DNA from: Diadema setosum | Taxonomy: Eukaryota > Echinodermata > Echinoidea > Diadematoida > Diadematidae | DNA: 64,000 bases | Assembly: GCF_964275005.1 (NCBI RefSeq) | Contig: NC_092699.1 | Coordinates: forward strand, 18,652,901-18,716,900 | Direction of reading: 5' to 3' | Shown: piece after piece, positions 23,562-50,763 of the stretch | How the letters are laid out: each line of letters begins with the position of its first letter | Position numbering within the stretch: position 1 is the stretch's first letter | Notes under the pieces: model-generated | What the model saw: the letters and a program-made list of their open reading frames with translations, nothing else | What the model was told of the DNA's origin: nothing | The model's database searches: none | Program-made: the position numbers and the translations under genes

Positions 23562-24542
23562 TCATGGCACACCTTGAACTCTCTCACAGCACTCCGAGGG
23601 TGGTTTGTTCCAGTTGTACACATAGGACTGCCGCAGCTGTTCCTCCCTCGCACACATTTTGCCATGCTTTTGGAGGTGGCTCCACTTCTCCTTGAGTTCC
23701 TGGTTTGTCTGTTTGTGTGTGATGAGGTAAACATTTCTGCAACCCCGTGACTTGTACTCAGTGTCAAAGCGAGGATCGTGCTCACGATCGACGTCAATGG
23801 CACCCATCCATGAGCCTAGTGAGATGTCTTCAGCATTGTACTTTTTGAGCATTTTAGCGTTCACAGCTACATAGTGCACCAAGTCGCTGGAAAGCACATA
23901 CCCTCCACCGAGAGCATAGGGAAGGTAGTGATCGCAGAGGAGCCAGTCGTTTTCTGCATACTTGCCACGCGTGTGTGCATGCTGGCGCCCATCGAAGAAA
24001 CCCCAGTACAGCTTCTCCTGGTTCTTGCTGCGCAGCTCCCGCGACAGAGCATCAAGTCTCACCAGCGAGTCATCATCTGCTTTCAGCACAAACTTGGCGT
24101 CCACATGCCTGTCCACCCAGACGAAGGAGTCGATGAGCTTCTGGGTGTTAGACTTGATGTTTTCTTGGACGGAAGAAAGCAGCAAGAGGTCATGATGCTG
24201 ACCGCTCTCTTTCTCCAGTGCCCGTTTCTCCTCGCCGGACAGGCCGTATGTCCCGATGACAAACTTGATGATCATGTCCTTGGTTCTCTTCGTCATCCAG
24301 GTCTCCCGGATGGTGTAGCGCCGTGCATCCAGCTGTGGGCCAGACATAATGAGTACCACCAGGAAGGCCGAGTGGTCTCGCTTGACCGACTTTAGCCCCT
24401 CGTTGCGGGCAGTGTCTTGAGGTGGGCATTCGGGGGCAGGACCAGGGTTGCACTTTGACATGTACATAAACACCCCAATAAAGGAGAGGAGTGGAATAAT
24501 GAGGAGCAGCGTTACTGTTGGGGACTTCACCTTCCGTGCCAT
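23562..24542 (-). CDS. B3GALT6: beta-1,3-galactosyltransferase 6 (linker GalT-II), paralogue A
   Basis: A 326-residue type II Golgi membrane enzyme (human about 329) that adds the third sugar, Gal beta-1,3, to the Gal-Xyl stub of the proteoglycan linker, priming heparan and chondroitin sulfate chains. I chose the ATG at 24540-24542 (MARKVK). An upstream in-frame ATG at 24654 would read through a probable intron, because an acceptor (CTCTTCATCAACAG) ends at 24580. Residues 9-28 form the membrane anchor. The GT31 domain has the metal-binding DDD at 156-158 (LKADDDSLVRLD), GGGYVLSSDLVHY at 212-224, EDISLGSW at 238-245 and the family tail REHDPRFDTEYKSRGC, then YNWNKPPSECCE. No defect is visible. 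AATAAA-like words about 350 bases downstream on the minus strand may serve for polyadenylation. Confidence 0.95.
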   Translation of the reverse strand: MARKVKSPTVTLLLIIPLLSFIGVFMYMSKCNPGPAPECPPQDTARNEGLKSVKRDHSAFLVVLIMSGPQLDARRYTIRETWMTKRTKDMIIKFVIGTYGLSGEEKRALEKESGQHHDLLLLSSVQENIKSNTQKLIDSFVWVDRHVDAKFVLKADDDSLVRLDALSRELRSKNQEKLYWGFFDGRQHAHTRGKYAENDWLLCDHYLPYALGGGYVLSSDLVHYVAVNAKMLKKYNAEDISLGSWMGAIDVDREHDPRFDTEYKSRGCRNVYLITHKQTNQELKEKWSHLQKHGKMCAREEQLRQSYVYNWNKPPSECCERVQGVP

Positions 24543-24580
24543 GACGGGATCTCGGACAAGCCTCACAGTATTTGTATTCC
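24543..24580 (-). promoter_or_regulatory. 5'UTR end and splice acceptor of B3GALT6 paralogue A
   Basis: On the minus strand a pyrimidine-rich tract ends in CATCAACAG, with the AG at 24580-24581. The 5'UTR part of the coding exon is then 24543-24579, 37 bases. Paralogue B has the same arrangement. The matching donor may be at 26760/26761. Confidence 0.5.
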
Positions 24581-49500: not shown

Positions 49501-50763
49501 CCCAAATAATGTAAGTTCCTAAAAGTTTGAGTTCGCTGTGCCATGTTTCTCTTTTTGGAGCAAAGCCATAAAGTATGAAGCTTTCCTGTCAAGTATCTAA
49601 TCTATAGTACAATGTACTCTAGCTTGTTCAAAAAAAAAGGCAAACAAACACACAAAAACTGTTATTACAGACTCTTAATATGTCACAAGTAATTTTACTA
49701 CTTCCACATAATTTTTTATCAAAAAAAAATAAGTCCACTATGTTATATTTGTGTTAGTTGAAATATGACTTTCTTTGTTAAGAGCAGTATCAAATCATTC
49801 ACGTTGATTTTGATTTGTGTTAGAGTTAGTTGTTTTGTGTGATTTAGTGTCAGATTGTAAAGTTTTTATTGCTCTCACTGATGTATTCAATAAGTGAGAG
49901 CTACAGCATAGTTTACCTTGCAAGACATTTTAAGGTGAGCAATTTTATTTGGATTCATTAATAGCAGAATATTTTAACAAAATCCAGAAATGTTAAGTGT
50001 AGTCAAGAGTTGATGGTCCTTTCAAGAGATGATTTTAAAGGTTTTGATCACATCATGTGAAATCCTTACACCCCTCATAAGTTGCTTAGTGTATAGTGTC
50101 CTGGGTGCACTCCTCTTCATAAGAAATGTACACAGAAATCTACGAAAATGTATTTCTCATGAAACATACAATTTTCTTGGGATAAGTATAGATATGAATT
50201 GGCTCAAAAGCTCTACCTACATGTCCAGGGAAAGTGGACATTTGTGAAAATCTATGTACAAAGCTAGTGATATATGCAGGTATTACATTGCACAGTTGCT
50301 ATACTTGAGAGAAGAGAGCAAGGATTTCATGAAAATTGACAAAAATTGACTATTTTGCATATCCACTAACATTCAGTTTTTATTTTGCATACAATTTTCT
50401 GAATTTACACATTTTTCTGAGGACTGTGCCTTTTTGAACCAAACGCTAGAAAGTCAATGAATAACACCAGAAGAGGAATGTGTACCTGTTAAAATGGTTC
50501 ATTGATCTTTCTGACACCAGGAAATTGCGGAAGCACTGAAGAAAGAGGAAGCGGAAATGAAGCAGCGAGCAGAGTCTGGCTCGCCCCAGGCAACGGACCA
50601 CCATCAGGCGCGACAACGGACGAATAACTTCAATGGTCAGCCTGACCATGCTCCCGGTATCGTGGGAAGCACCATGGCAAATGTACTGGTCATCATCGGC
50701 TTTGCGGCCTTTGCATGGACGGTCAAGTATGTTCTACGGAGCATAGCCAACACAGACCAGTAG
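46555..50763 (+). CDS. UBE2J2: ubiquitin-conjugating enzyme E2 J2, five coding exons
   Basis: Exons: 46555-46675, 47250-47393, 48246-48384, 49373-49453 and 50521-50763 (stop TAG), all with GT-AG introns. The expected protein is about 242 residues (human 259): N-terminal [24 protein letters not shown], then the UBC fold with [33 protein letters not shown] and catalytic Cys at about 91 in [19 protein letters not shown] charged linker leads to a C-terminal membrane anchor at about 214-234 ([20 protein letters not shown]). The family is tail-anchored in the ER membrane and ubiquitinates ER-associated degradation substrates, also on Ser/Thr. Exon 1 holds five A where six are expected (46617-46621), shifting the frame between LK and KDPVPY; conservation on both sides suggests an assembly error or a rare allele. 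A MITE lies in intron 2. Confidence 0.95.
47416..47573. mobile_element. TA-type CTGTA...TACAG MITE, copy 4, in UBE2J2 intron 2
   Basis: CTGTAATAGTGGATATTTTT at the left pairs with AAATTTCCACTTTTACAG at the right. TA follows the right end at 47574-47575; the left flank reads TG. It aligns closely with 57016-57234, including CCGCGGAATCAAGA and GCTAGCTTCTGGTTG-like text. It starts only 23 bases after the exon 2 donor. Confidence 0.75.
48556..48582. repeat. poly(A) run in UBE2J2 intron 3
   Basis: About 27 A in a row, preceded by TATCAAA. It may be the tail of a decayed retroposed sequence or a simple homopolymer. Confidence 0.8.

Follow-up and report, generated by a model that had tools for sequence, protein, structure and literature searches.

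The human segments 1p36, 3q26, 7q22 and 12p13 make up a 2R paralogon, in which 7q22 is one of the 2R sister segments of 1p36.3. GNB1-4 are tabulated at these four locations in an excerpt of published data (PMC6952978). A partial gene listing of an interval of pig chromosome 6 contains NOC2L and, further along, SDF4, B3GALT6, C1QTNF12, UBE2J2, ACAP3, PUSL1 and INTS11, followed by TAS1R3, DVL1, MXRA8, AURKAIP1, CCNL2, MRPL20 and, later, SSU72. In the same source, TPRG1L and TP73 fall in a separate interval, 1.3-3.7 Mb further on (PMC10034349). An excerpted listing of a human 1p36.33 loss gives SDF4, B3GALT6, FAM132A and UBE2J2 (PMC2683930). These pig and human listings, as excerpted, back the proximity of B3GALT6 and UBE2J2 in human, on which the original prediction for the present locus had drawn.

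Our literature search returned no publication on the synteny of UBE2J2 and B3GALT6, nor on UBE2J2 microsynteny. UBE2J2 is an ER-anchored ubiquitin-conjugating enzyme, and we know of no functional tie between it and B3GALT6; their linkage therefore needs no functional reason. Here we compare the mammalian arrangement with a locus of a non-vertebrate genome in which the two genes also lie close together.

Gene content of the window

The window, by which we mean the whole 64-kb stretch of DNA that was analysed, corresponds to C15:18652901-18716900 in a searched genome of 912.7 Mb and 102 contigs. B3GALT6 is present in it as two intact copies and UBE2J2 as a single gene, all within window positions 23562-50763. 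In window coordinates, the features of this region are:

23562..24542, minus strand: B3GALT6 copy a, intact, single-exon, 326 aa (open reading frame with start and stop, Pfam PF01762, PDB 9sp7)
32763..33770, minus strand: B3GALT6 copy b, intact, single-exon, 335 aa (open reading frame with start and stop, Pfam PF01762, PDB 9sp7)
41278..44177, minus strand: LINE-type element, outside both genes, between B3GALT6 copy b and UBE2J2 (Pfam PF14529, PF00078, PF03372)
46554..46675, plus strand: UBE2J2 coding exon 1 (exon joining)
47250..47393, plus strand: UBE2J2 coding exon 2 (GT-AG splice sites)
48246..48384, plus strand: UBE2J2 coding exon 3, bearing [11 protein letters not shown] (exon joining)
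49373..49453, plus strand: UBE2J2 coding exon 4 (exon joining)
50521..50763, plus strand: UBE2J2 coding exon 5, with the C-terminal membrane anchor and the stop (exon joining)

Reading frames, joined exons and PDB matches all agree with the original prediction that two B3GALT6 paralogues and UBE2J2 lie within 27 kb. The end points given there are also correct: the coding sequence of the first B3GALT6 copy finishes at 23562, and UBE2J2 finishes at 50763.

Among solved GT31 enzymes, B3GALT6 is the nearest to both copies, its E values being over 75 orders of magnitude below those of B3GALT5. The best PDB match of copy a is human B3GALT6 (9sp7) at an E value of 4.2e-97, compared with 1.2e-14 for B3GALT5; copy b likewise matches B3GALT6 (9sp7) best, at 9.7e-94, compared with 4.2e-17 for B3GALT5. 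Each copy is an uninterrupted single-exon frame, and B3GALT6 is described as a single exon in human and zebrafish in an excerpt of PMC7758351. Alignment with a human B3GALT6 sequence reveals the DDD motif (KADDDS / KVDDDS) and the conserved C-terminus, ECC..QG(V/I)P, in both copies. Judging from their family, both should act as galactosyltransferase II of the glycosaminoglycan linker. The genome-wide galactosyltransferase-31 search yielded 47 matched stretches, some genes being counted as two, and four of these stretches lie on C15, copies a and b among them.

The UBE2J2 gene consists of five coding exons and four GT-AG introns, and its joined frame encodes 242 aa. The joined exons match UBE2J2 best in the PDB (2f4w, E value 6.2e-92), the next different protein being E2 6 at 7.2e-63. 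The cysteine site of the UBC domain, [11 protein letters not shown], is present in exon 3, and we take its cysteine to be the catalytic cysteine of UBE2J2. Near the C-terminus, 32 residues share 69% identity with the membrane anchor of the human protein. When the genome was searched with UBE2J2, five of the nine matched stretches were the gene's own exons; the remaining four lie on C19 (two), C14 and C24, with 40-58% identity.

In the LINE-type element, two overlapping frames encode the domains of an endonuclease and a reverse transcriptase (Pfam). Positions 39540-39866 resemble a LINE-type element tail by eye, with no Pfam match to one. Tandem arrays occupy window positions 44-1376 (units of 386/195 bases) and 19301-19985 (unit of 159 bases). 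At 10644-11498 on the plus strand there is an open frame of 284 aa, charged, repetitive and of high codon score, which has no Pfam match and is possibly an exon of a further gene. A tRNA search of the 64 kb found no tRNA in the window.

Age of the B3GALT6 duplication

The tandem duplication of B3GALT6 that had been proposed for this locus is real; it is old, however, and says nothing about the linkage. Copies a and b share 54.6% identity (178/326 aligned residues); with human B3GALT6, each shares 49.7% (154/310 and 155/312, respectively). Between the copies, pS reaches 0.83, with dS saturated, and dN is 0.39, which indicates that both have long been under constraint. In a maximum-likelihood analysis that used eight further GT31 proteins of this genome as the outgroup, the two copies join apart from human B3GALT6 with moderate support (SH-aLRT 80.9, UFBoot 86). 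The AU test rejects neither of the two alternative topologies (p 0.16 and 0.23), and so leaves room for a duplication that preceded the split from vertebrates. Comparison of the flanks by blastn (window 22001-27500 against 31001-37000) returned the coding match and a 92-base palindromic element only. A recent tandem duplication is ruled out by this limited sharing of the flanks together with the saturated dS. On these sequence comparisons, the duplication is most likely old and would have arisen within this lineage after its split from vertebrates. The two old copies provide a natural test of whether the linker galactosyltransferase is split between two enzymes in this lineage.

The 92-base palindromic element lies downstream of each B3GALT6 copy, at window positions 22037-22128 and 32453-32544, and the two occurrences are 83% alike. 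It is perhaps a dispersed short inverted-repeat element.

Genes flanking the window

A region of 264 kb, comprising the window and 100 kb on each side, was scanned by tblastn with 13 proteins at an E value of 0.05, the first nine queries being human sequences. Five of the 13 gave matches, namely UBE2J2, B3GALT6, MRPL20, TPRG1L and ZCWPW1. INTS11, SDF4, CPTP, DVL1, ACAP3, SSU72, GNB1 and the p53 domain had no tblastn match at E 0.05 in the 264 kb. The flanking genes are placed as follows:

C15:18618947-18645000 (L015-L018): ZCWPW1-like gene (minus strand) and MEPCE (plus strand), nearby and pointing apart (Pfam, tblastn)
C15:18720270-18723033, minus strand: MRPL20, three pieces, first exon not found (Pfam Ribosomal_L20, structures)
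~C15:18787332-18799062, minus strand: TPRG1L, three pieces, ~70 kb beyond the window end (hSac2 domain, tblastn)

MRPL20 lies 3.4-6.1 kb beyond the window end and is supported by PF00453 (Ribosomal_L20, 8.6e-29) and by PDB structures of mitochondrial L20 (3.9e-25). B3GALT6, UBE2J2, MRPL20 and TPRG1L follow one another in the mammalian order within ~123 kb. On the other side, MEPCE (Bin3 domain, 7.7e-27) and ZCWPW1 (zf-CW, 1.8e-10) are found 8-34 kb left of the window; in human 7q22.1 these two genes presumably also lie near each other and point apart. An excerpted gene list of human 7q21.3q22.1 has ZCWPW1 and MEPCE close to GNB2 (PMC3038855). In the present genome, ZCWPW1-MEPCE and B3GALT6-UBE2J2-MRPL20-TPRG1L occur together within ~180 kb.

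Further left of MEPCE and ZCWPW1 there is an MFS transporter (Pfam), and the scan also placed a GPCR and alkaline phosphatase exons between MRPL20 and TPRG1L. To our knowledge, the MFS transporter and the GPCR are not members of the 1p36.3 segment. The alkaline phosphatase exons, at C15 ~18743000-18766000 (L021-L023), were recognised by Pfam in two cases and by eye in the rest, and perhaps represent more than one gene. An IntS11_C match at window 1761-2243 (E 0.045) was considered as a further 1p36.33 gene and treated as chance, the body of INTS11 being on C3.

Marker genes across chromosome C15

Seven further markers, chosen from the mammalian segment and from its paralogon, were searched genome-wide. 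Six of the seven have a copy on C15, which makes up 4.2% of the genome:

C15 12.56 Mb: RER1 (genome-wide search)
C15 14.76-14.77 Mb: SDF4, four pieces, best E value 4.1e-7 (genome-wide search)
C15:15773281-15775555 (15.77 Mb): p53-family match, one of two places (DNA-binding domain)
C15 21.68-21.69 Mb: GNB1-4 relative, 71-92% identity over pieces (genome-wide search; poorer matches elsewhere)
C15 25.87 Mb: NOC2L (genome-wide search)
C15 36.98 Mb: SSU72 (genome-wide search)

The second place of the p53 family is C16:8381483-8381764, and the strongest single stretch of the family is on C16. Weaker matches of the SDF4 query on C12 are probably related EF-hand genes. INTS11, although it too belongs to the mammalian interval in the pig listing, maps to C3 and not to C15. 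The chance of finding five of six markers on C15 is 7.7e-7, as calculated before GNB was added and the count became six of seven; as a rough control, two of the 45 other galactosyltransferase-31 matched stretches are on C15. With six of seven markers on so small a share of the genome (4.2%), conserved synteny at chromosome scale is the best reading of the linkage. SDF4, the mammalian neighbour of B3GALT6, lies at a distance of 3.9 Mb, and RER1, NOC2L and SSU72 at distances of 6-18 Mb, so that most of the gene order is lost.

Origin of the linkage

We hold, with a probability of roughly 0.87, that these genes have inherited their linkage: all or a large part of C15 would be of common origin with mammalian 1p36.3 and its 2R sister segments, 7q22 among them, the local order having been kept or regained. 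A pure coincidence with no conserved chromosome behind it agrees with the position of INTS11 on C3, but is contradicted by the C15 copies of the other six markers, and we consider it very improbable. At the chromosome level, the marker genes and the nearby MRPL20 and TPRG1L support a linkage shared with the vertebrate segment, as the original prediction had it. The ancestral close adjacency that it implied is not established, given the frequency of neighbour pairs in the shuffles described below, the differing orientations and the distant SDF4. As to orientation, B3GALT6 (minus) and UBE2J2 (plus) are observed to diverge here, and we take them to converge in human. If so, no single inversion explains the arrangement.

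The tight spacing could have arisen by chance on a conserved chromosome, B3GALT6 and UBE2J2 having come together anew through local mixing in this lineage, and we put the odds of this at about even. We shuffled 20-80 segment genes on C15, the gene number being assumed and the even placement ignoring uneven gene density. Any pair then lay within 25 kb in 22-99% of shuffles and a mammalian-neighbour pair in 5-18%, which speaks for a renewed approach, as do the opposite relative orientation of the two genes and the wide scatter of the other markers on C15. The proximity of MRPL20 and TPRG1L, in the mammalian order, speaks against it and for a different reading, in which B3GALT6, UBE2J2, MRPL20 and TPRG1L were ancestral close neighbours whose spacing was kept, perhaps by regulatory constraint. 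In the same shuffles (20-80 genes), a triple fell within 47 kb in 0.6-28% of cases. For a quadruple within 123 kb, order not counted, the share was 0.04-15%, with 1.7% for 45 genes, 4.9% for 60 and 14.6% for 80. Requiring the same order makes the quadruple chances about twelvefold lower, because 2/24 orders count, and this corrected chance favours an old block. However, the strands of B3GALT6 and UBE2J2 differ from those in human; SDF4, ACAP3, INTS11, CPTP, DVL1 and SSU72 are without a match within 100 kb of the window, and SDF4 is remote here, although it adjoins B3GALT6 in the excerpted pig list. We regard a kept ancestral block as a reasonable candidate, and rate a renewed approach slightly above it. 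The extra tightness of spacing, beyond the chromosome-level linkage, is only suggestive.

Under the inherited linkage that we prefer, B3GALT6, UBE2J2, MRPL20 and TPRG1L would have stayed on one chromosome in both lineages, and extensive rearrangement would have scrambled the order along the chromosome. Near the window, a short segment may have kept, or regained, the succession B3GALT6-UBE2J2-MRPL20-TPRG1L, while orientations changed and a LINE was inserted. The tandem duplication of B3GALT6 would be an ancient event that most probably followed the split from vertebrates, both copies remaining open and constrained.

Comparison with known systems

As a single locus, the present arrangement looks like ordinary macrosynteny. 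It gives a well-defined place at which to ask how long genes keep their local order within conserved animal chromosomes. It is similar to the deuterostome ancestral linkage groups, as described in an excerpt of PMC11175523, in that genes of a vertebrate segment are on one chromosome and their order is largely mixed; the C15 comparison differs in that it rests on seven markers and local genes. The same excerpt describes the deuterostome pharyngeal cluster, a microsyntenic block (PMC11175523) that our locus resembles in that a few neighbours lie near one another in two distant lineages. Here, however, the comparison covers one non-vertebrate genome only, and orientations are not kept. When compared with the excerpted pig listing, in which C1QTNF12 lies between B3GALT6 and UBE2J2 (PMC10034349), the window has a LINE between the two genes.

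A parallel to the 2R paralogon is provided by the closest GNB1-4 relative, which is on C15, and by ZCWPW1 and MEPCE, which are near GNB2 in human and left of the window here. Unlike the human segments, this genome would hold the unduplicated counterpart, with few members placed. That the window lies within a remnant of the chromosome region from which 2R produced the 1p36/7q22 paralogon, in near-ancestral local order, seems to us rather unlikely. If it were true, two human segments that parted after genome duplication would still be joined here, and a collinear four-gene stretch touching 7q22 genes would help to work out how the genes of the GNB paralogon were ordered before the duplication.
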